DNA of 64,000 nt from Spartobacteria bacterium (lineage in GTDB: Bacteria; Verrucomicrobiota; Verrucomicrobiia; Chthoniobacterales; UBA6821), in NCBI GenBank assembly GCA_947487385.1, contig CANKWU010000010.1, positions 1 to 64,000 on the forward strand, in the 5' to 3' direction. Shown here in pieces: positions 8,366 through 24,326 of this stretch (positions within the stretch are counted from its first letter, which is position 1; each line of letters begins with the position of its first letter). The notes under the pieces are model-generated. The model did not search any database. It was not told the DNA's origin and saw only the letters and a list, made by a program, of their open reading frames with translations. The position numbers and the translations under genes are program-made.

Positions 8366-8800
8366 ACGGCGGCGGCGGAGCTTTCAGCACTCCATCCAGC
8401 TCGAATGTCCAGGCATGGTAAGGGTACATCAGAATGCGTGTGTGCCCGCAAGACGAAGACCTGTCCCTGAATACTGCAGGACCGTATGCATTGTGACCGA
8501 ACCCGGAGGCATCATGTCCATGGCTCGGTGTGGGTAGATCTGAGCAAGCGTCCGGGCAACGCCATCCTTTCCATGGATCACAATGACGGGCTCGCCGAAA
8601 AGGTCGATATTCACGAAATCGCCTGGCTTTGGGAGTTAAGAGATGTGTCCCACACAGAACCAATCCTTGCGCAGGATGTTTTCGACCTCCCAGTCGATGA
8701 GGGCGTCGTTGGAATAGGCCTCGGCGGGAAACGCGACCGACCTTTCGACAGGCAAGTCATGTATACGACTGATTTCTCTGAGTATTTTCCTCAAGACTTA
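8366..8800 (-). pseudogene. Truncated, frameshifted Rieske oxygenase (copy B)
   Basis: EAYSNDALIDWEVENILRKDWFCVGHISQLPKPGDFVNIDLFGEPVIVIHGKDGVARTLAQIYPHRAMDMMPPG then, after a frameshift, GFGHNAYGPAVFRDRSSSCGHTRILMYPYHAWTFELDG; colinear with 3828..5168. Confidence 0.85.
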
Positions 8801-10006
8801 CTTTTTTGCTACAGTGAGTGGCGGATCGGCAGGCCGCCGCTCACGTTGGGAGATCGGTGTCTTTCTGTTTGTGACATGATTGGTTGGATTGATATCACTA
8901 TTACCGTTATTTTTTGACTTACAATAGATAGGTCTACCTAAGAAACTGGGCAAACTATTCCTGCAGGTCCCAATCCCCCCCCCACCGGTATTCTCACCAG
9001 TTTCCATCCCCTGATGACACCGGTAGGTGAGCGCCGCCGCGTAGCGGTTCTCCACCCCGAGTCTGGCAAGGATGTGCTCCACATGATGCTTCACGGTGTG
9101 GCCGCTTGCTCCGAGGATGATGGCTATCTCATCGTTCGACTTGCCGCGCTCGATCCAGGAAAGGACTTCCATCTGGCGCGCGGTGAGAACCGAATGGAGA
9201 GGGGCTTTCGCCCCCTCATCTTGGCCTGCCTCCATGATCATGACGGCGCAATCAGAGTCCGGATGACGCGAAAATCGCAAACTAATGTTACCCTCCTTGA
9301 TGGTGAGTCTTTCCTCAAGCTTCCCTCTCCGAGCTTTCTTTCTTCCCAACGACCACTTGCTGTAAAGCCCTAGGAGTTTCCTGGGAAGGGGATGGTTCTT
9401 CGTGATTCTCATGCCCCCGAAGCGCGCCATCAGACTCCGTGCATTCCCGCTCCAGGACTGGATCACTCCATCCGGGTCGACAAGCGCATGACCTCGGCGT
9501 AGCGCCATTTCCAACTCGGCCACACCGAGTCCCGACTCTTCCGTGGAATCAGGGCAGAGCGAGTCGAGCAGGACGTCGATACCTGCCACCCCGATGCACT
9601 TCCCGTGTGCGAAAATCGGAGCTGCCTGCGTGGTGATGAATAGCAACCGGCCCGCCATCGGGTAGACATAGGGATCGATCACCATTTCCTCGGCCCGACG
9701 GCTCGGAGCAAGGTACCAGTGACCAGAGCCGGGCTTGTCATAATTCGTGTTGGCTTCGTATCGAATCTCTCCACCGTAGCGGTGCCAGAGTGGAACAAAG
9801 CGCCCCGTCAGGTCATGACCGGGTGCGCCGATGAATTCCGAATCCCTACCGTCGTAAGCATTCGGCTCCCAGACGGTCCAAACACCGACAATCTCTGGGT
9901 GCGCCTGGAGAAATTTACGCAACAGGTCGTTACCCGTGGCGCGGTCAGCCACTCCGAGTTCCTTCAGTGAAGTAAAAATCTGCGCAATGCTTCCAGCGAT
10001 GCTCAT
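8798..10006 (-). CDS. Cache-like - PAS-like - LuxR HTH regulator (copy B)
   Basis: GRDSEFIGAPGHDLTGRFVPLWHR...GHWYLAPSRR...GVAGIDV; HTH LTARQMEVLSWIERGKSNDEIAIILGASGHTVKHHVEHILARLGVENRYAAAL; ORF then runs about 75 aa past the HTH. Confidence 0.8.
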   Translation of the reverse strand: MSIAGSIAQIFTSLKELGVADRATGNDLLRKFLQAHPEIVGVWTVWEPNAYDGRDSEFIGAPGHDLTGRFVPLWHRYGGEIRYEANTNYDKPGSGHWYLAPSRRAEEMVIDPYVYPMAGRLLFITTQAAPIFAHGKCIGVAGIDVLLDSLCPDSTEESGLGVAELEMALRRGHALVDPDGVIQSWSGNARSLMARFGGMRITKNHPLPRKLLGLYSKWSLGRKKARRGKLEERLTIKEGNISLRFSRHPDSDCAVMIMEAGQDEGAKAPLHSVLTARQMEVLSWIERGKSNDEIAIILGASGHTVKHHVEHILARLGVENRYAAALTYRCHQGMETGENTGGGGIGTCRNSLPSFLGRPIYCKSKNNGNSDINPTNHVTNRKTPISQRERRPADPPLTVAKK

Positions 10007-10024: not shown

Positions 10025-10804
10025 TTAGGTGTAGAAATTCTCGGGGATTCCGTACCACTCAGAGGGCGGCAATGGCGGTTCTTCCTCAATGGCAAGGAGC
10101 AGTCTTCTTGTAAGTTCCAAGACCATTTTTTCAAAAAGTGCCGCACCCTCCCCAGCGTTTCCCAGTGAAGGTCTTCCAGTCGTGCCGTTCAGGCTGGTTT
10201 GGGAGACCGGATAACAGAAGATCTTGCCGGATGTCCGGTCAGGGTCGTCGGCATAGGCGAAGGCAGAGCAATCCACCGACTCAGGGAGGAGGTGAAGCAG
10301 GAGGTCGCATTCGGCCTGATTGGCATGCAGATCCGCAGCATCCCTAAAATAAAGTTCCCCGATCTCGGGAGTCATGGTGAAGGTATCAACGAAGCCGACC
10401 TGAATTTTCCCCAGCAATTCTAGGCGGATCTGATCCACGGCCACGCGGAGCGGGGAGTTGTTTCCTGCATGGGCGTTGATGAAGAGGAGTTTTTTCCACC
10501 CTGTGCCCTCGGCCCATCGGGCCCACTGGACGAGGGTGTCGATGAAGGTCTTCGGTGTCAGCGAGAACGTCCCGGGCCATTTCGTTGTGTGTCCACCCGA
10601 GGAGGTGTAGGCGAGTGCGGGAGCCCATGGAACGTCAGCGAGACGGCATGCCTCTCGGCAAAGAGCCTCCGCGATGATAGTGTCGGTGCCAATGGGGAGT
10701 GCCGGTCCATGCTGCTCAGTCGCCCCGAGAGGGAGAACAAGAAGCGGACACTTCTCCTGGACGGCCCTGACCTGGGGCCATGTCATATGATTGAGTGAAT
10801 TCAT
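10025..10804 (-). CDS. Creatininase-family amidohydrolase
   Basis: LLVLPLGATEQHGPALPIGTDTIIAEAL...TSSGGHTTKWPGTFSL...LLFINAHAGNNSPLRVAVDQIR. Confidence 0.9.
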   Translation of the reverse strand: MNSLNHMTWPQVRAVQEKCPLLVLPLGATEQHGPALPIGTDTIIAEALCREACRLADVPWAPALAYTSSGGHTTKWPGTFSLTPKTFIDTLVQWARWAEGTGWKKLLFINAHAGNNSPLRVAVDQIRLELLGKIQVGFVDTFTMTPEIGELYFRDAADLHANQAECDLLLHLLPESVDCSAFAYADDPDRTSGKIFCYPVSQTSLNGTTGRPSLGNAGEGAALFEKMVLELTRRLLLAIEEEPPLPPSEWYGIPENFYT

Positions 10805-11703
10805 AATTTAAGCTCTACCGCGGCAGGCACCTCGTCTAGGTCAGTTTCCCGTCGGGCCTGTGGATTTTTGTCAAACCACTCGGCAACCTCCGAGGCACGT
10901 GCAAACCAGACATCACCCTTTTCCTGCATGGCTCTCACAAGCCTCTCGAGAAGGCGCACCCGTGAGGGCCTGCCTGAGAGCCAAGGATGAAGTGTGAGCA
11001 CAAAGCAACAGCCGAACGCGTGCATCGCATCGAATTCCTCCCACCAGAGATCGAAGACCTTGGCGCAGTTTTCAGGCGGGGCACCCCAGGCTGGGTCGGC
11101 GTTAAAAGCGAACTGCTCCCAGTCCTCCAACATCCATTGTCCGGGAATTTCAATCAGGCCACACGGGTGCCGGTAGGGCACATCGTCTCCCATCGCACTG
11201 GCGCAGTAATGGAGCCCGTGATCCTGAAGAAGGCGGGGCGTCCAGGGATTGAGTTCGAACCAGGGGGCCCGGTAACCTTTGGGACGACTCACCCCCAGTT
11301 CAGTCAGAATCTTCAGGCTCTTCAAGAGAATTTCCTCCTCCTGTGCCTCATCGAGGGTCACTAGCTTCTCGTGCAGGTAGCCGTGTAGTCCGATCTCATG
11401 CCCAGCAGCAGCAATGGCCCTGGTCATGTTGGGGTGGTTTTCTGCAATGTAACCGGGAATGAAAAAAGAAGCCGGCACCCCGAGATGTTGGAGTAACTCG
11501 AGGATTCTTGGCACACCGACTTGCGGCCCGTAAGTGCACTGTGACCAAGTCGTGATCCTGTTCCGTAGACTGGGATCATGCTCCAATGCAGTGGTCTCGC
11601 CATCCACATCGAAGCAGAGGACAATTGCACATTTGGCCCCAAAGGGCCATTGGAACCTTGGCTTGGGTGTAAAGGGGGCTTGATTCACAGGTCGTCCCTC
11701 CAT
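10801..11703 (-). CDS. Polysaccharide deacetylase-family protein (PuuE/allantoinase-like NodB fold)
   Basis: VLCFDVDGET...GVPRILELLQHLGVPASFFIPGYIAENHPNMTRAIAAAGHEIGLHGYLHEKL...GYRAPWFELNPWT. Confidence 0.88.
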   Translation of the reverse strand: MEGRPVNQAPFTPKPRFQWPFGAKCAIVLCFDVDGETTALEHDPSLRNRITTWSQCTYGPQVGVPRILELLQHLGVPASFFIPGYIAENHPNMTRAIAAAGHEIGLHGYLHEKLVTLDEAQEEEILLKSLKILTELGVSRPKGYRAPWFELNPWTPRLLQDHGLHYCASAMGDDVPYRHPCGLIEIPGQWMLEDWEQFAFNADPAWGAPPENCAKVFDLWWEEFDAMHAFGCCFVLTLHPWLSGRPSRVRLLERLVRAMQEKGDVWFARASEVAEWFDKNPQARRETDLDEVPAAVELKL

Positions 11704-12470
11704 TCTCCAGTGACTGCGTTGGGAGGCGTCACTAGGTCATAGCGCTCCCATCCCGCAGCAATGCCTCCGTCCACCGGAAGGATCGCCCCAGTGATGTAGG
11801 CGGCTTCTTCCGAAGCCAAAAAATGGAAGGCGGAAGCAACCTCCTCGGCAGTGCCAAGGCGCCCCAAGGGGGTGCGCCTCTCTGCGAAAGCAATTTCCGG
11901 ATTGTCCGGTATCCCGAGAACCGCCGGGGTCAGGATAGTACCTGGGCAGACGCAATTCACCGTGATTCCGCGAGGCGCAAATTCCACGGCCGCGCTACGG
12001 GTGAGATGGATGACGGCCGCCTTGGATGCCGCATAAATGGATCCCCCCGGAACCCCCAGAAGGCCGACAAAGGATCCAGTGTTGAGGATACGGCCGCCGC
12101 GCACCAAGTGCCGGGCTGCATGAGCGTGCCCTAGGGCCACGGCACTCACGTTGATTTCCAGCGTCTTGCGTACCAGTTGAGGAGTGAGATTAACAAAGTC
12201 GACACCGAGAGGCTGGATCCCAGCATTGTTGACCACAATGTGGAGGTTGCCAGCCTCGAGGGCTACCTCATCAAAGGCATGTCCTAACGCCGTATCATCA
12301 GAGACGTCGACAGTCAGCATGCGAAAGCCCTCCTCCCCCGACGGACTCCGGTCGATACCGAACACCAGTGCACCTGCGGCTGCAAAGCGTCTGGCCGTGG
12401 CAAGCCCGATTCCAGAGGAGGCCCCCGTGATTAGCGCAACCTTCCCATGAAGTGAAAACATGGGTTGCAT
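11685..12470 (-). CDS. Short-chain dehydrogenase/reductase
   Basis: VALITGASSGIGLATARRF, NNAGIQPLG, YAASKAAV, PVDGGIAAGW. Confidence 0.93.
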   Translation of the reverse strand: MQPMFSLHGKVALITGASSGIGLATARRFAAAGALVFGIDRSPSGEEGFRMLTVDVSDDTALGHAFDEVALEAGNLHIVVNNAGIQPLGVDFVNLTPQLVRKTLEINVSAVALGHAHAARHLVRGGRILNTGSFVGLLGVPGGSIYAASKAAVIHLTRSAAVEFAPRGITVNCVCPGTILTPAVLGIPDNPEIAFAERRTPLGRLGTAEEVASAFHFLASEEAAYITGAILPVDGGIAAGWERYDLVTPPNAVTGEWRDDL

Positions 12471-12498: not shown

Positions 12499-13410
12499 CT
12501 ATTCCACGTCATCCCCTACCTCAGTCATTCTGATCATTGGAATGTTGTCATGAGCCTCTTCCGAAGGGGGGTGAATGTGCTCCTCCAGACGCTTTTTGAG
12601 AGCAAGGAACTCGCGGGAGAGGAAATGGGGGGTCTCGCGGGGACGGGGGACGGGGTTCTCGATGAATTCGATGATTCGACCGGGATTGGCCCCCATCACA
12701 AGGATCCGATCGGCCAGGAAAGCCGCCTCGTCCAGGTCGTGGGTGATGAAGAGGACGGTCACATCGACCTTCTTCCAGATTTGGAGAAGGTAATTCTGCA
12801 TCTGGCTCCTGGTCTGGGCATCGAGTGCGGCAAAAGGCTCGTCCATCAGCAGGATCCGGGGCTTGTTGGCCAGTGCTCGGGCGATGGCAACCCGCTGTTT
12901 CATTCCACCAGAGAGTTCATGCGGGTAGGCATCCTCATATTTTGCAAGCCCTACCATCTCAAGCCACTGGCGCGCCTCGGCATCTGCAATACCCTCGTTC
13001 TCTCCACCAATTGAGAGGCCAAACATGACATTCTTCTTGACGGTGAGCCAGGGAAAGAGCGTATAACCCTGAAAAACCATGCCGCGATCAGGCCCGGGTT
13101 GTTCTACTGCTTTTCCATCAAGTAAAATCTGCCCACCTGTTGATTCATCAAGTCCCGCCACAATACGGGCGAGTGTAGATTTTCCACATCCTGAAGCCCC
13201 AACCACACAGATGAATTCACGCCGATGAATTTGAAGTGAGACATGGTCGAAGATCGTTGTCGCATTTTCACCTTCTCCATAGGACTTACGAAGATTCTGA
13301 ACATCCAGAATGATCGGACGTTCATAAATTCTTGAAAATCTCTGCGCTACTTCTGGCGATTGCTCCTTGTAATCGGGAAGTGCATGTTCATGGGTGCTCA
13401 TGATGGACAT
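12499..13410 (-). CDS. NitT/TauT-family ABC transporter ATP-binding protein
   Basis: GASGCGKSTLARIVAGLDESTGG, LSGGMKQRVAIARALANKPRILLMDEPFAALDAQTR. Confidence 0.93.
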   Translation of the reverse strand: MSIMSTHEHALPDYKEQSPEVAQRFSRIYERPIILDVQNLRKSYGEGENATTIFDHVSLQIHRREFICVVGASGCGKSTLARIVAGLDESTGGQILLDGKAVEQPGPDRGMVFQGYTLFPWLTVKKNVMFGLSIGGENEGIADAEARQWLEMVGLAKYEDAYPHELSGGMKQRVAIARALANKPRILLMDEPFAALDAQTRSQMQNYLLQIWKKVDVTVLFITHDLDEAAFLADRILVMGANPGRIIEFIENPVPRPRETPHFLSREFLALKKRLEEHIHPPSEEAHDNIPMIRMTEVGDDVE

Positions 13411-13413
13411 TCC

Positions 13414-14442
13414 CTAGGTTGATGCCGGCATTTCGCCCATCTTGGCTCCTTCCAACAAGGAAAGAGGCTTTTTCTTCGTAAGGGCATTACGGCTTCTTTT
13501 CCAAGGGAAGAGCATGGCGCTGAGCCAAGCCAGAAACATATCTGAAGTTACGCCGATGATGCCGATCATCGCGATGGCTGCGTAGACGTTGTCGAAATTG
13601 CGGTATCGTGCCTGCTGGTTGATGAAGAGCGTGATACCGGACATAGTGCCGATTACCTCCGCGACAATGAGATAGGTCCACGCCCACCCCAGCAGAATGC
13701 GCATGTCCGTGTAGATATCGGTGATGGAGGCAGGAATGATCACGCGACTAACCAACTTCCACTTGGAGGCACCTAGCGTCTGCGCCGCCTCAATCAACGC
13801 CGGATCTGTCTTTCGCACACTGTTGGCGATAATAAGCACCTGCTGAAAGAAGGTTCCGAGAACGATGATGGCGATTTTTGGAGCATCCTCGATACCGAGC
13901 ACGGCTACGCAAAGGGCGCCGAACGCTGGCGCTGGCAGGTAACGAAAAAACTCGATGAATGGTTCCTCAAGCCGCGCAAAGAAACGGTAGGTCCCGCAGA
14001 GGATACCCAAAGGCACCCCTAACATTGAGGAGATTAAGAAACCAAGAACGATGGTGCGGATGCTGTGCGCTAGACTCTCGTGAAGCCAAGGCTCGTTCGG
14101 CAGCAGCGGCGCTGTCTTGAATGCCGTGTAGAAGGCGGCGAGGACCCTGTGAGGTGCAGGCAGAAAGACCGGATTGACAAGGAATCCCTCCGGGAGTTGC
14201 TGACCAGCGGCTTTTGCCTTTCCCAACTCCTTGTTAAAGTCCGCCTTGGGGATGTCTAAACCCTCGCTGAAATAATCGACTTCCCCAGGATTGGTCACGT
14301 GAACCAAGGGATGCCATACCCACGGAACATAGCTCACCAAGCACCAGAGGAGTATGGGGACGACGAACGAGAGGATCGTCAGTTGGAGCTGCCGCTTGTG
14401 CGGCAGCTCCTTCTTCAGACCAAGCCAGTCCTGATGCGCCAT
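13414..14442 (-). CDS. NitT/TauT-family ABC transporter permease
   Basis: Multi-TM; EAAQTLGASKWKLVSRVIIPASITDIYTDMRILLGWAWTYLIVAEVIG. Confidence 0.92.
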   Translation of the reverse strand: MAHQDWLGLKKELPHKRQLQLTILSFVVPILLWCLVSYVPWVWHPLVHVTNPGEVDYFSEGLDIPKADFNKELGKAKAAGQQLPEGFLVNPVFLPAPHRVLAAFYTAFKTAPLLPNEPWLHESLAHSIRTIVLGFLISSMLGVPLGILCGTYRFFARLEEPFIEFFRYLPAPAFGALCVAVLGIEDAPKIAIIVLGTFFQQVLIIANSVRKTDPALIEAAQTLGASKWKLVSRVIIPASITDIYTDMRILLGWAWTYLIVAEVIGTMSGITLFINQQARYRNFDNVYAAIAMIGIIGVTSDMFLAWLSAMLFPWKRSRNALTKKKPLSLLEGAKMGEMPAST

Positions 14443-14469: not shown

Positions 14470-15447
14470 TTACTTCAGCGCCTCGATGATCCCTGGTGCC
14501 ACGTAGTTGGCAGGCTTCTGAGACTGCTTATAGACGCCGTTCTCGATGTTGAATTTGTCGCCGACAGCGAGTGATCCGTAAATGGAGTCCAGTCCGTCGC
14601 CTTTCTTGATAGTTTGTTTCGCCTCTGCGAGGGTCAGGAAGTGAGTGCCGGGAAGGTTCTTTCCGTAGGCCGTTGGATCGACTCCGACCTTGGCTGCCAT
14701 GATCTTAACAGCATCGTCATGGGTCTTGGGATCTTTAAGGTAGTCGACGCACTTATAGTAGATCGCGGCTATCTTGGCCCAATCCTCCTTGTGGGCGGCA
14801 TAGCTGCTCGGATTGACCGTAAGCACATCATAGATCAGGCCCGGGGCCTGTGCGCTCGTAAAGAGCTTGGTGGAACCGGGCACCTGATCGAGCACTTGAC
14901 CAGAGATCGGGTACCACGCCGCAACAGCCGAAACTTGTCCCGAGGCTAGCGCTTGCGGTGTCTTGTCCGTTGCTGTACCCACTAGGGTCACGTCCTTCTG
15001 TGTCATTCCGTTCTGTTTGAGGGCCTCGAGGAGGAGGAGATGTTCCACCAACGTGATTTCCACGCCGACTTTCTTTCCCTTGAGGTCCTTCATGGAGGTT
15101 ATCCCGGGAGCGCCAATGACCATATCATTGCCGTCCGTGTAATCCAAAAGCGTGGTGATCTTGCTCTTGGCACCCGTAGCCCCGATAACCAGCACGTCAC
15201 CCGCGACCATCATGTTTCCATCGATCTTGCCGGCAGAGAGAGCGTCGAGCGACGGAGCGTATTCGAACCAGACCATATCGACATCAAGGCCGGCGTCTTT
15301 AAACCAACCTTTCTGTTTTGCGATCTCCATGATCGTGTAGCCAGGCCAGTCGCTATAACCGACTTTCAATGGTGCTGCATGGCTGGCCGATGACAAGGTC
15401 ATAGCTGCCACTAGTGTAAGTACTGTATTGCGTAGTTGTGTTTTCAT
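14470..15447 (-). CDS. NitT/TauT-family ABC transporter substrate-binding protein
   Basis: Signal peptide then LKVGYSDWPGYTIMEIAKQKGWFKDAGLDVDMVWFEYAPSLDALSAGKIDGNMMV. Confidence 0.9.
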   Translation of the reverse strand: MKTQLRNTVLTLVAAMTLSSASHAAPLKVGYSDWPGYTIMEIAKQKGWFKDAGLDVDMVWFEYAPSLDALSAGKIDGNMMVAGDVLVIGATGAKSKITTLLDYTDGNDMVIGAPGITSMKDLKGKKVGVEITLVEHLLLLEALKQNGMTQKDVTLVGTATDKTPQALASGQVSAVAAWYPISGQVLDQVPGSTKLFTSAQAPGLIYDVLTVNPSSYAAHKEDWAKIAAIYYKCVDYLKDPKTHDDAVKIMAAKVGVDPTAYGKNLPGTHFLTLAEAKQTIKKGDGLDSIYGSLAVGDKFNIENGVYKQSQKPANYVAPGIIEALK

Positions 15448-15458
15448 GGTGGTGTTGA

Positions 15459-15486
15459 GTATTAAGAGTTTAATTTGTCGTAATAC
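15459..15486. promoter_or_regulatory. Predicted NikR-like regulator operator (site 1)
   Basis: gtattaagagtttaatttgtcgtaatac = GTATTA-N16-TAATAC, 12 nt upstream of the substrate-binding protein ATG; 21/28 identical to site 2. Confidence 0.65.
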
Positions 15487-17230: not shown

Positions 17231-18916
17231 TCAGCGATCTCGCAGGTAATTTCGCCAGCCTCCATGGACCGTTATCTCCGGAGCATCTGCAAGCGCCTCA
17301 GGTTCGCAGATAAAGCCCTTCACCCACGAACCGTCCATCAGCTCGATAGTGCCTATTCCAAGGGGATGAGGGATCAGACTGAGAAAGGAGCCCAAAGCCT
17401 TGACCGGTATATTCCAGACCTCGACCTCGATCGTTGCTCCATGATGGCTATCACGTACTAATCCCGGTTTCGGAGGCACTGTAGGGAGAGCATATAACCT
17501 GTAATGGGCCGCAGTCGTCGTGATCTGTAATAGAACGGCTCCTCGCTCGGTTAACTGGCAGTTCAGGGGTTGGCCGGAAAGGTGGGCTCCCACGACAGCC
17601 AAGGGAATCATTCCTCGGCATGCATCCGCTCCGCTAGCGATGGCGGCCAGCAGACGATCTTCAAAGGCAGGCCCGACCAGCGTGACTCCGAACGGAAGAC
17701 CGTTCTTCCGGAAGCCGGAGGGAATAGCCAGTGCGGAAAGGTCGAGGAGATTGACGAAGTTGGTGTAGGTACCGAGACGACTATTGAGTCCCACTGGATC
17801 GGCCAACACTTCTTGAACTCGGTAGATTGTGGGAGTTGTCGGAAGCAGAAGAGCATCGATATTGTCCCAGACCGGGGCCGTCGCGGCTTTCAGTCGTTGG
17901 AGTTCATACAGGCCTGTGAAGGCGTCCATGGCTGACTTGCGCGGCCCCTCCGTGATGATACTCCGGACCGTGGAATCGACCTGGTCGGGATTGTTGCGGA
18001 TGAACTCTCCCACGGCATGGTCGCGTTCTGCCACCCAGGCTCCTCCGTAAAGAAGGCGGGCAGTTTGGAGAAACGGGTCGAGATTGATAGGTACAATCTC
18101 GTATCCACGTACCCGCATGCGTTCGATCTCTTCCTGGAATAACCTTTCCGACTCACTATCGCCAAAAAACTCCGCACACTCCGGCACACCGAGACAAATT
18201 CTCTTTCCCCTAGCGTGAAGAGGCGGCATCGGACGTGACCAAGGATCCTGATCATCAAATCGGGAGGTAATCTCAAAAATATCCAGTGCTTCTTTCACGC
18301 TGTGAGCAAAAATACTCACGCAATCCAAGGAAGCACATGCGGGGACAACCCCGCGGACACTCAAGAGTCCGCGCGACGGCTTAAGGCCCACGAGATTATT
18401 GAATGCAGCTGGAACGCGTCCCGATCCGGCAGTGTCCGTTCCTAGGGAAAAAGCCACCAGACCGGCAGCGACGGCAACGGCTGATCCGGAACTCGATCCG
18501 CCAGAGATATACGCCGGGTCATAGACATTCCGGCAGATACCATACGGGGTGCGGGTACCGACAAGTCCCGTGGCGAACTGATCCATGTTGGTCTTGCCGA
18601 TGAGGAGTGCGCCGGCCTTTCTGAGGAGATCGACGACGAAAGCAGATTGCTCCGGGACATAGGAAAATGCGGGACAGGCGGCCGTGGTCGGGAGGCCCGC
18701 CACATCGATATTGTCCTTCACCGCGAAGGGAACGCCATAGAAGGGAAGGGAGGGATCAGAGAGCGCCGCTTCCCGCAGCACCTCTTCCTGATCCCTCAGG
18801 AAGATCCAGACCCCATCCGTACCACGTTCGGCGATCTTGGCGTATACCCCGTTGATAACCTCCTCGGCCGTTGTGGAGCCATCTCCTAGGGCCTGACGCA
18901 GTGAAGTAATTGTCAT
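17231..18916 (-). CDS. Allophanate hydrolase
   Basis: Amidase signature YGVPFAVKDNIDVAGLPTTAACPAF...SGGSSSGSAVAVAAGLVAFSLGTDTAGSGRVPAAFNNLVGLKPSRG plus C-terminal allophanate hydrolase-like domain. Confidence 0.93.
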   Translation of the reverse strand: MTITSLRQALGDGSTTAEEVINGVYAKIAERGTDGVWIFLRDQEEVLREAALSDPSLPFYGVPFAVKDNIDVAGLPTTAACPAFSYVPEQSAFVVDLLRKAGALLIGKTNMDQFATGLVGTRTPYGICRNVYDPAYISGGSSSGSAVAVAAGLVAFSLGTDTAGSGRVPAAFNNLVGLKPSRGLLSVRGVVPACASLDCVSIFAHSVKEALDIFEITSRFDDQDPWSRPMPPLHARGKRICLGVPECAEFFGDSESERLFQEEIERMRVRGYEIVPINLDPFLQTARLLYGGAWVAERDHAVGEFIRNNPDQVDSTVRSIITEGPRKSAMDAFTGLYELQRLKAATAPVWDNIDALLLPTTPTIYRVQEVLADPVGLNSRLGTYTNFVNLLDLSALAIPSGFRKNGLPFGVTLVGPAFEDRLLAAIASGADACRGMIPLAVVGAHLSGQPLNCQLTERGAVLLQITTTAAHYRLYALPTVPPKPGLVRDSHHGATIEVEVWNIPVKALGSFLSLIPHPLGIGTIELMDGSWVKGFICEPEALADAPEITVHGGWRNYLRDR

Positions 18917-21900
18917 GACTCGATGAGGGCCGCAAGGTGTTGGCCTGCCGCGACCGGCTTCCCCTCGGTAATGGCAAGTGAATGAACGGTTCCCGCAGAG
19001 ACGGCCGTCACGCCGATCTCGGTCTTCATTGATTCCACGATGAACAGCAGGTCTCCTTCGGAGACGGTGTCACCCGGTTTCACAAGAACCTTCCACATGT
19101 TTCCAGTAACTGGGGAGTCGACAAAGATTCCGCCGTCGGGAAGCGCGATTTCCTCCACGGATGGCATGGCAACCACTTCATCGGTGGCCTCGAATCCTGC
19201 TGCTGCCCAGCGTTCACGCTCCTCTTCGAAAGCCTTCTGCTGCAGTTTTTTGAATGCGGTGCACTCGTCCGAAACTGACTCAAGAAAAGCGTGGTAATCC
19301 TTCAAGCGGAACTCTCCTTCCTCGATTTTCGGTGAGAAGCGCCCGTAGGGGAAATCGGCGCGCATCTGCATCAGTTCGTCATGAGTGGCGGGATAAAAAC
19401 GGATCTGGTCAAAAAAGCGCAGAAGCCATGGCTTGGTGAACTCCTTGGTAGTGCGGAATCGGTTCCACATCTGGATCGTGCGTCCGACGAACTGATAGCC
19501 ACCTGGCCCCTCCATCCCATAGACACAGAGGTAGGCCCCCCCGATGCCAACGGCATTTTCAGGGGTCCAGGTGCGTGCCGGATTATACTTGGTCGTGACC
19601 AACCTGTGCCGCGGATCAAGCGGCGTCGCGACCGGTGCGCCGAGGTAGACATCGCCTAGGCCCAGCACGAGGTAACTGGCATCGAAGACGATTTTCTTAA
19701 CCTCCTCGATGGACTCGAGTCCGTTGATGCGGCGGATGAACTCAATGTTGCTCGGACACCAGGGAGCGTCCGGTCGTACCGACTGCATGTAGCGGCGGAT
19801 CGCCTCCAGGGTCGACTCATCCTCCCAGGAGAGCGGGAGATGAACAATGCGGGTGGGAACAACCATTTCATCGATGGAAGGAAGGTCTTTCTCCAAGGTA
19901 ATCATCCGCACGAGAAGATCCCCGAGGGGGATAATCCGGCTGTCGAAGTGAACCTGGAGGGAACGGATTCCCGGAGTGATGTCGATGATACCTGGAATCC
20001 CAGCCTTCTCCAATGTCGAGAAGAGGGCCTGGACGCGGAAGCGCAGATTCAGATCCAGTTCGAGAGGGCCATATTCCACGAGCAGGTAGTCGTCTCCCGC
20101 TCCACGGTAGACCACGCGGGGCGTTTCCCCGGTCTCTGGGATGGTGTGGAGAACCGCCTCGTCGAGCGAGACGCTGATCCCCGCGCCGCTCGTGTTTTTA
20201 TTAACCGTGAGACGCTTGAGACGAACGCGGTCACCCGCCTTGAGTTGTCCCATTTTCCAGAGTTCGGAAGACGTGATCACTACGGGGCAGACAAACCCTC
20301 CAAGGCTGGGCCCATCGGGTCCCAGCAGAATTGGCATGTCGCCCGTGAAATCCATGGCACCGATCGCATAGGCATTGTCATGAATATTGGAGGGGTGAAG
20401 TCCTGCCTCTCCACCATCCTTGCGGGCCCATTGAGGTTTCGGCCCAATCAACCGCACTCCGGTGCGGCTTGAGTTGTAATGAACCTCCCAGACCGTCGAA
20501 AACACCATCTCGATATCCTCTTCGGTGAAGAAATCGGGTGCTCCGTGCGGCCCGTAGAGAACGCCGATCTCCCAATCATTGGAGAACTCTGGCCGATTGG
20601 CCACCGGATGCATTGGGGAAAGCGGGGTATTCTCCGCGATCCTCAACACATCGCCGGATCGCAGGGCTCGACCGCCATGTCCTCCGAATCCGCCGAGCGT
20701 GAACGTGGCACGGCTTCCAAGATACTCGGGCACATCGAATCCTCCCCTGATGGCCAGATAGCTGCGTGCTCCCGTCCCAGTTGCTCGGCCGATCTTCAAG
20801 GTCTGTCCGACAGCAGCTTGAACAGGTTCCCAAAAAGGAACTTCCCGTCCGTCGAGCGTTGCCTTCATCTCCGCCCCGGTGAGACAGAAAGTCGCGGAAC
20901 TCCGGAATCGGAGTGTGGGTCCCGACATCGTGATCTCGAGGCCCGCCGCCAAAGCGGGGTTGCCCACCGCCTCATTCGCGAGACGGAACGAAAGCGAGTC
21001 CATGGGACCCGAGGGGGGAATCCCCACGGCCCAATGCCCGACACGCCCTGGAAAATCCTGAACCGTTGTCTGGGTTCCCCCGTCCAAGACATCGATCGAG
21101 GTGGAAGAAACTTCCAGCGTCCTGAGAAAACCGGTGCTGACATTTCCCGAGCGGAAACGTTCGTCGTCCAGAATACCCCGCAGGTAGGAAACATTGGTTT
21201 CGATCCCGTGCAGTGACGTTTCGCCGAGGGCCGACCGGAGTTGGGCGATGGCGGCATTTCGATCCGTTGCCGTGGCGATTACCTTGGCGATGAGAGGGTC
21301 ATAGTTCGAGGTGACCTCCGTTCCGGTCTCCACCCAGGTGTCGACCCGAACATCCTCGGGAAAACGCACCTGCGTGAGCAGACCCGCGCAGGGCTGGAAA
21401 TTCTTAGCCGGATCCTCCGCGTAAACTCGCGCCTGGATCGAGTGACCCTGCGGTTTGCGAACTTGGGTCACCCATTCCTCTGGGAGGTTTCCCGCCGCAA
21501 GGCGAAGCATCCATTCGACAAGATCAACACCAAAGACCTTCTCTGTGACGCCATGCTCGACCTGGAGACGGGTATTGACCTCAAGGAAATAGAACTGCTT
21601 CTCCGCATCGTCGTAGAGAAATTCCACGGTGCCAGCGGATGCATAGTGTACCGACGCAGCAAGAAGCCGTGCCGCCTCGTGGAGACGAGAACGGGTCCCT
21701 TCGTCCAGTCCTGGGGCCGGAGTCTCCTCGATAACCTTCTGGTTGCGGCGCTGCGCCGAGCAATCGCGTTCGCCGAAAACCACCACGCGACCATCGCCTA
21801 GACCGAAGACCTGGACCTCGATATGACGAGCCACCTCGACGAACTTTTCCACATAAACGCCACCCTGCTTGAAATTCGCTTCCCCGAGACGCTGAACCAT

Positions 21901-22440
21901 GGCGAACCGCTCGGTCAGTTCCTCTTTATTGCTGCACAGCTGAAGGCCAATACCCCCTCCTCCCGCCGTGCTTTTGAGCATGACTGGATAGCCGATCCGG
22001 CCGGCTTCCAGAGCCGCCTCGGCGGCATCTGCCACCAGATTGCTTCCAGGAAGCATCGGTACTCCCGCGCGGCGGGCAAGATCCCTGGCAATGTGCTTGA
22101 GTCCGAAATCCGCGAGATGCTCAGGTCGTGGACCCACAAAGCGTATTCCGGCATCCTCGCAGGCAGCAGCAAAGGATGAGTTCTCGCTCAGAAAGCCATA
22201 GCCCGGATGGATGCCGTCGACTCCTAGGCGGCGGGCGGCCTCAAGAATGGCCTCTGTCTTGAGGTAGCTCTCCGACGCAGCGGCAGGGCCGAGACAGACT
22301 GATTCACCGGCCATGCGCACATGCAGTGCCTGGGAGTCAGCTTCAGAGCAGACTGCCACCGAAGCGATGCCCATCTGGTCAAGAGTGCGGATGATGCGGC
22401 AAGCGATCTCCCCCCGGTTGGCAATGAGGACCTTCTTCAT
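18913..22440 (-). CDS. Biotin-dependent urea carboxylase family (urea or guanidine carboxylase)
   Basis: 1175 aa: biotin carboxylase ([20 protein letters not shown]), KipI/KipA-like carboxyltransferase region, biotinyl motif ESMKTE. Confidence 0.95.
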
Positions 22441-23093
22441 GGACGGACCTCCCAGATGCTAACCCGGATCGGTGTCGGATTGTAGGCGTTGCATGGGTTA
22501 TTGAGCTGTGGGCAGTTTGAGATGAGGCAATGGACATCCTGTCCTGCCACCATCTCCACGTACTTGCCGGGCTCAGAGACGCCGTCATCGAACTTCAAGC
22601 CTCCCTCCGGGGTTACCGGCACGTTCATGAAGAAGTTGATGTTGTGGGCCAGATCCCGCTTGGTAAGATTGAGCCCCGACTTGGCCATCTGCAGTAGGAA
22701 TGTGTCGCGGCAGTTGTGCATGAAGCGTTTGGAGAGGTCGTAGCGGACCATGTTGCTTTCTGCCGCGCAGGCACCACCCACGGTGTCGTGCCGCCCGCAG
22801 GTATCGGCCGTGATGGTCAGCATCGTGCGGTCAAGATTGGAGAGAAGCCTTGTCCCGGTGGTGAGGTAGATGCCTTCCTGGGCGCGGATGGTCGCCTGAG
22901 CGCTGTAACGCTCGGAGGGATCGTGGGCGTTAAAAAAGAAGGTGTCGGCGGCCTGGTTTCCCTCCAGATCGGTGATGCGGAGTGTCTGGCCGGCCTTGAC
23001 CAAATGAATCCAGCCATTCCCGGCGGGGATGATTTCGGCATGGATAGCATCGGCCTCGCGCAGGCTGCTCTCAACATAGTTCAGGGTGCTCAT
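22437..23093 (-). CDS. DUF1989 urea amidolyase-associated protein (UAAP2-like)
   Basis: [56 protein letters not shown]; operon context. Confidence 0.9.
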
Positions 23094-23130
23094 GGAATGA
23101 TGAGGTTGATGAGGTGTGGTTACGGATAGG

Positions 23131-23832
23131 TTAGATATAGAGCCGCTCCGTCAGTTCCATGGCCCTTGTGCATTCAGGACGGAAGTTCCGGCAGAAGTCA
23201 TCGCTCGCCGCAGGAATCCCGGGGGCAACGGTTATCTCCACCGGCACGCGGGGGTAATCTCCCGGCGGGTGCATTGGATGAGGGCAATTGGAAAAGACCG
23301 CGAGTAGGTTCACCTCGGCGCGAAAGGTGATGCTCTCCCCTCCTTTGCAGTGGGAAGGATCGAAGTGAAGTCCCCCGTCGTCATCCGCTGTGACCTTGCT
23401 GAAGAAGTTTACGGTGGCGACAAGATCCCTAATTCCTAGGTCGTGTTTGGCGAGTTCCACCAGGAAGTTGTCGTGGGAGTTGCGCAGAAAGTTGTTCCGG
23501 CAATCCTGATAGGTCCCTTCCCCGAAAGAGGTCCTGACGATTTCCGGGGTGATGAAACCAGCCAGAGGATCGTGCCATCCGAGCGTGTCTTCCGTGATGG
23601 AGACAAGAGCGTGTCCCATGTCGCTCATCAGCACATGCCCGGCAGTAAGTTTGGCAGTATGCAGGGCCTTGAGCGTGTCGGGTAGGTTGAGGCGGTCAAT
23701 CGGATTGTCTGCATGGAAAAACAGGGCGGAGACATTGGCTCCGGGTGCAAGGGCCTTAAGGCGGATCGTGCGGTGGCGCGGCACACGCATCGACCACATG
23801 GCGCCTCCTGGAAGTGTTTCTGTCAGGATCAT
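23131..23832 (-). CDS. DUF1989 urea amidolyase-associated protein (UAAP1-like)
   Basis: [69 protein letters not shown]; operon context. Confidence 0.9.
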
Positions 23833-24296
23833 AGCTTGGAATTCAATGGGTGAAGTTGGGGAATGATGGTGCTCGTGAGGGTGAGTTTGCTTCCCTTGAC
23901 CCCCTTGCAGGTCAGGAACATGTCGGAGATCGTTCGCAGTGTTTCCGAAGGTCCCTGGATGATGATGACTTCCATGATGTGATCGTTTTCGAGCAACACT
24001 TGCAGGGAGCCGATGACCTCGGCGACGTGTTGGCGCTTCAGGAGGGCCAACCGGGAGAGCAAGTTGTTTTTCTTCTGGTTGTAGAAAAGAGTGACCGTAC
24101 CGGCCATCACGTCCGCTTCTCCATCCTTGGAGTGCTCGATCAGGTGTTCGGTGATGATGGAGGCGAGCGCCTGCGAGCGACTCTCGAAGCCCCGCTTGAG
24201 AACCAGACCATCAAGGCCCGAACAGATATCCGGTGGGAGCGAGACACTGATACGGGTGACTCCAGACTGTGTTTTTGAAGTGAGGCTCTTTGTCAT
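23829..24296 (-). CDS. NikR-family (RHH + ACT-like) regulator lacking nickel ligands
   Basis: RHH VTRISVSLPPDICSGLDGLVLKRGFESRSQALASIITEHL; C-terminal VMAGTVTLFYNQKKNNLLSRLALLKRQHVAEVIGSLQVLLENDHIMEVIIIQG aligns gap-free to the NikR metal domain. Confidence 0.85.
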   Translation of the reverse strand: MTKSLTSKTQSGVTRISVSLPPDICSGLDGLVLKRGFESRSQALASIITEHLIEHSKDGEADVMAGTVTLFYNQKKNNLLSRLALLKRQHVAEVIGSLQVLLENDHIMEVIIIQGPSETLRTISDMFLTCKGVKGSKLTLTSTIIPQLHPLNSKL

Positions 24297-24298
24297 TA

Positions 24299-24326
24299 GT
24301 ATTAAGAAGCTAAATATTTGTAATAC
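24299..24326. promoter_or_regulatory. Predicted NikR-like regulator operator (site 2, autoregulatory)
   Basis: gtattaagaagctaaatatttgtaatac = GTATTA-N16-TAATAC, ending 2 nt from the regulator ATG. Confidence 0.65.

Follow-up and report, generated by a model that had tools for sequence, protein, structure and literature searches.

What does a regulator of the NikR family respond to once its nickel ligands are gone, and which genes does it control? The question is raised by a gene in the 64,000-nucleotide stretch of DNA from a Spartobacteria bacterium that was analysed here (the window), located where an earlier note on this DNA had put it (Table 1). The note had proposed that the NikR scaffold is repurposed to sense something other than nickel, and this proposal is borne out on four counts: ligands have changed across a whole clade, the tree splits at one branch, the operator is conserved and the regulon is dedicated. 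We consider it probable that the protein is a NikR offshoot which has lost nickel sensing and serves as a dedicated local regulator of guanidine assimilation that is released by a substrate-linked small molecule. There is good support for the regulator and its regulon; its ligand is our inference.

Table 1. Position, strand and basis of assignment of the features in the window
Feature	Position	Strand	Basis or remark
NikR-like regulator, 155 aa, RHH + NikR_C, ligands changed to R/Q/L/I	23829..24296	-	profile, alignment, tree, AlphaFold2 model
UAAP1, carboxyguanidine deiminase subunit, CgdA/CgdB family, DUF1989	23131..23832	-	TIGR03425 over cut-off
UAAP2, carboxyguanidine deiminase subunit, DUF1989	22437..23093	-	TIGR03424 over cut-off
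Biotin-dependent guanidine carboxylase (annotated family: urea carboxylase)	18913..22440	-	TIGR02712 over cut-off; Asp signatures
Allophanate hydrolase (AtzF)	17231..18916	-	family profiles, curated cut-off passed
Operator GTATTA-N16-TAATAC, 2 bases before regulator ATG	24299..24326		perfect palindrome
Operator GTATTA-N16-TAATAC, before ABC transporter operon	15459..15486		perfect palindrome
ABC transporter substrate-binding protein, probable guanidine importer	14470..15447	-	profiles; recurs beside regulator in relatives
ABC permease	13414..14442	-	profiles, relatives' loci
ABC ATPase	12499..13410	-	profiles, relatives' loci
SDR	11685..12470	-	profiles
PuuE/polysaccharide-deacetylase-like	10801..11703	-	profiles
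Creatininase-family	10025..10804	-	profiles
LuxR-type regulator with PDC sensor-like domain	8798..10006	-	
Aquaporin-family gene, 175 aa	16227..16754	-	between the two operons; no operator before gene

The regulator and the operon that it heads

Like NikR of E. coli, H. pylori and P. horikoshii, the regulator combines an RHH DNA-binding domain with a following NikR_C/ACT-like regulatory domain. It matches the Pfam NikR_C profile completely (positions 1-77, 59.7 bits, E=3.4e-16) and aligns without gaps over residues 14-143, and thus through both domains, with its closest solved structure, P. horikoshii NikR (E=2.5e-22), which agrees with the family assignment made in the note. It stays under the cut-offs of the NCBIfam NikR models (best 93.5 of 105 bits). 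The AlphaFold2 model of the protein (mean pLDDT 87) adopts the NikR fold, and its regulatory domain superimposes on C-terminal domain structures of NikR with TM-scores that reach 0.96 when normalized to target length and an rmsd of about 1 A. No second homologue of the regulator was found in the window's genome.

In E. coli NikR, one monomer supplies His87, His89 and Cys95 for nickel binding and its neighbour supplies His76 (PMC7055735). Different from NikR, the regulator lacks this high-affinity site: at the positions of His76, His87, His89 and Cys95 it carries R, Q, L and I, the very residues read in the note, and alignment to the NikR_C HMM likewise shows no intact His/His/His/Cys set. In the numbering of the protein itself the Arg opposite His76 is R88. 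In the second shell His62 is replaced by Q and Gln75 by K, two residues that are nearly or fully invariant among canonical NikR proteins, and the potassium site is changed as well (Glu30 to Q, Asp34 to S). Homology to NikR_C does not by itself imply nickel sensing.

The gene heads a tightly packed operon with two DUF1989 genes, a carboxylase and allophanate hydrolase, as had been described; overlaps of 4 bp join the regulator to UAAP1, UAAP2 to the carboxylase and the carboxylase to allophanate hydrolase. The earlier note left the pathway as urea or guanidine, and here only the guanidine part stands. Asp697 of the carboxylase lies opposite Asn1330 of the K. lactis urea carboxylase and a further Asp opposite Asp1584, and Asp at both positions is the signature of guanidine carboxylases (PMC11410670; also PMC12186494). 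UAAP1 and UAAP2 belong to the CgdA/CgdB carboxyguanidine deiminase families (PMC11410670, citing the identifying work). Because of Asp697 and of these two DUF1989 proteins the operon, judged by its sequence signatures, encodes the guanidine carboxylase pathway and not that of urea; Asp697 rules out a urea carboxylase. All related loci with a readable carboxylase motif have Asp at position 1330 and none has Asn.

UAAP1 exceeds the cut-off in 33 genomes of the window's class; in 29 of them the cluster includes the regulator, and the other 4 have cgdAB with no regulator nearby. No UAAP1 was detected in five other genomes sampled from the genus or in five further ones from the family, but remoter relatives have it. 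The distribution of the cluster (17231-24296) is patchy through transfer or loss.

Nickel ligands across the homologues

Homologues of the regulator (n=125) were gathered from the window's phylum and from plasmids, and their ligands and neighbouring genes were read; the sampling was seeded by similarity to the window protein, and the proportions are accordingly not unbiased frequencies. We call a homologue linked when it lies beside cgdA/cgdB (UAAP1/UAAP2) or the gene for the binding protein of the transporter. Not one of the 52 linked homologues has the HHHC set or even Cys95. The HHHC set is found in 72 of the 73 unlinked ones, the sole exception being an HHHY relic with a stop codon. Both kinds are present in one genome, which has a linked RQLV protein and an unlinked HHHC protein. 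The linked ligand sets grade from HHHY and HHHS through HHLT, RHLI and RHLV to RQLI and RQMN, so that the loss of the nickel ligands in this group looks stepwise, with Cys95 always gone and the histidines disappearing by degrees.

A second tree was built from the alignment minus the seven metal-site columns. In this tree a single branch separates all linked proteins from all HHHC proteins, the latter including NikR of E. coli and P. horikoshii, and the branch is strongly supported (bootstrap 100, SH-aLRT 99, present in 200/200 bootstrap trees); the first tree shows the identical split. Obtained as it was with the metal columns removed, this single split rules out that the ligand loss is explained entirely by scattered or convergent events. 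On sequence phylogeny, then, the linked regulators are a monophyletic offshoot of NikR rather than an isolated decayed gene.

While the metal columns drift in this clade, other positions are fixed. No aligned row departs from Gln114, which is Arg or Lys in NikR, or from Pro146 in a C-terminal extension, and Glu103, Arg35 and Pro21 are almost as constant; Gln114, Glu103 and the extension with Pro146 set the clade apart from NikR. These residues bear on the idea that the protein is a ligand-free constitutive autorepressor, whose sensing domain is retained only as a scaffold for the tetramer and which holds expression at a fixed low level. The decay of the metal site fits such a state, but the conservation of Gln114, Glu103 and Pro146 in the regulatory domain suggests a retained function. 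Moreover, catabolic operons with their own importer are inducible as a rule, and we regard a constitutive autorepressor as extremely improbable.

Could the clade instead still sense metal through an altered site, and so couple the nickel-independent guanidine pathway to the metal supply as a nickel-sparing switch? Several members (HHHY, HHHS) have exchanged Cys for Tyr or Ser but keep three histidines and might still bind metal, and the guanidine carboxylase pathway can stand in, without nickel, for nickel guanidinase plus urease (PMC11410670). Yet the loss of Cys95 extends to every linked homologue, the window regulator is devoid of His62 and Gln75 in addition to all four ligands, and neither urease nor NiFe hydrogenase was found in the window's genome. 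We therefore consider a metal signal unlikely for the window regulator and a nickel-sparing switch as the role of the clade very improbable.

Operator sites and predicted regulon

The two palindromes which the earlier note had singled out for binding experiments, one before the regulator and one before the ABC transporter operon, are perfect, and the 2.05 Mb genome has no other GTATTA-N16-TAATAC site even when one mismatch is allowed. Both precede guanidine-pathway operons and none lies at genes for nickel transport or nickel enzymes. Across 51 loci (815 kb; three of them without the regulator), an exact GTATKA-N16-TMATAC was counted 18 times with spacer 16 but not once with spacers 8-15 or 17-24; allowing one mismatch gives 45 sites at spacer 16 as compared to 0-4 at other spacers. 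Thirty of these loci have such a site, with one mismatch or none, immediately ahead of a regulator, UAAP1 or transporter gene, and an operator can accordingly not be recognized in every linked locus. None of the three cgdAB clusters that lack the regulator has an operator. The spacer controls and the whole-genome control rule out chance palindromes.

The operator of E. coli NikR is GTATGA-N16-TCATAC (PMC7055735), which shares with the sites described here the palindromic form, the 6-bp arms and the 16-bp spacer. The E. coli motif itself occurs in several relatives of the window locus, and within the phylum sites of this type also precede some of the canonical NikR genes themselves. Since the geometry matches and canonical NikR genes of the phylum carry such sites, the operator looks inherited from NikR. 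What differs is the predicted regulon, which here comprises guanidine assimilation instead of nickel uptake and nickel enzymes. Because the RHH domain and the NikR half-site and spacing are kept, the regulator would be expected to bind GTATTA-N16-TAATAC, presumably as a tetramer.

A search of 22 related genomes for exact sites returned mostly the regulator, UAAP1 and transporter places again. Additional sites lie before a transporter and, in two genomes, before a gene for type III glutamine synthetase (GlnT, TIGR03105 over cut-off), which directly follows the exact operator (L193:8551-9943 and L102:2788-4181); a few exact sites at unrelated genes may be due to chance. By its GlnT sites the predicted regulon is extended to ammonia assimilation in these two relatives.

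The operators commonly lie within about 50 bases of a start codon, a position more in keeping with repression than with activation; a simple scan for sigma-70 promoters near them gave no clear result. As the operator is found just before the start of each operon, we suggest that the apo-tetramer represses both the operon from the regulator gene through cgdAB and the carboxylase to allophanate hydrolase, its own gene included, and, from the site at 15459, the ABC importer operon, most likely by covering the promoter. A small molecule entering the former metal domain would then release the protein from the operator and lift repression.

The signal

Which small molecule would this be? Guanidine is our first choice as inducer and carboxyguanidine or allophanate the second. 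We regard it as evenly balanced whether the protein is a guanidine-binding transcription factor, its NikR metal domain having been remodelled into a binding site for the guanidinium ion or for carboxyguanidine. The acidic residues Glu103 and Glu93, conserved in the clade, together with Gln114 are candidate contacts for guanidinium or carboxyguanidine.

The main rival effector is nitrogen status: with the same regulator and regulon, the ACT-like domain would bind glutamine or another amino acid rather than guanidine or an intermediate of its breakdown. Amino acids are commonly bound by folds of the ACT type, and the inclusion of GlnT in the regulon of two relatives is in line with such a signal. 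A nitrogen-status regulator would however be expected to have more targets than the two sites in the window's genome, both of them at guanidine genes, and we consider this alternative rather unlikely.

In many bacteria this pathway is controlled by guanidine riboswitches (PMC12186494). Such a riboswitch is frequent before the genes of the pathway but is no requirement of it. Like the riboswitches of classes guanidine-I to -IV, the predicted operators stand before genes of the guanidine carboxylase pathway, and guanidine would be the signal in either case, but here the receptor is predicted to be a DNA-binding protein and not an RNA. An Rfam scan detected no guanidine riboswitch in the window, none was found among 20 related loci, and guanidine-I (RF00442) was found in 0 of 231 genomes of the class, with B. 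subtilis as a positive control. No riboswitch was thus seen alongside the regulator in the window's class. One Acinetobacter plasmid (L034) does have both, an exact operator (1833-1860) being followed after about 35 bp by a guanidine-I riboswitch (1895-1990, 82 bits) that leads into UAAP1. This arrangement ties the predicted operator independently to guanidine.

But why would a transcript that already carries a guanidine riboswitch also be placed behind a protein operator? Two-input control of UAAP1 on this plasmid, by operator and riboswitch in tandem, is possible, and given the riboswitch the regulator in Acinetobacter could read a second signal such as nitrogen status. A different second signal would be sensible there and to that extent favours the nitrogen-status alternative. 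On another Acinetobacter plasmid (L038), atzF follows the regulator, with genes for a 2OG-Fe(II) oxygenase and for an SMR transporter nearby, and this module resembles the methylguanidine module of PMC12508155, a likeness by the kinds of genes near the regulator, whose identities are putative.

The preferred reading, that of a NikR offshoot responding to guanidine or a compound derived from it, would provide a protein counterpart to the guanidine riboswitches of bacteria. According to a 2025 review the known guanidine receptors, besides transporters and enzymes, are riboswitches only, and guanidine-binding transcription factors may yet emerge (PMC12186494). The clade described here offers a concrete candidate for such a factor, one that would be the first known to sense guanidine or a product of guanidine, and since it occurs in at least two phyla and its predicted operators are defined, the question can be tested directly. 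It would also be a clean case of a metalloregulator whose signal has changed while its DNA specificity was kept, with intermediate ligand sets in living relatives. CdbA of Myxococcus xanthus, compared by description only, is an RHH regulator with a small-molecule ligand other than a metal, as is proposed for the present protein, but is a nucleoid protein that binds c-di-GMP (PMC7156744). A paper on urea in A. baumannii deals with a LysR-controlled operon and does not mention a regulator of the present clade (PMC5050338). No description of the clade was found in the open-access literature searched, a body that excludes most subscription papers and preprints.

Several neighbouring genes deserve mention. 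The aquaporin-family gene matches the MIP profile only in part, to position 157 of 222, and is probably truncated. The SDR, PuuE-like deacetylase and creatininase-family genes (10025..12470) probably continue the transporter operon. Such genes recur in guanidine clusters of relatives, the creatininase family in 15 loci, and the set suggests an uncharacterised step that would free guanidine or urea from a larger compound. Homologues of the LuxR-type regulator lie near transporter or GlnT genes in five related loci (L193, L194, L110, L105 and L040), and this protein is a possible second regulator of the guanidine system.
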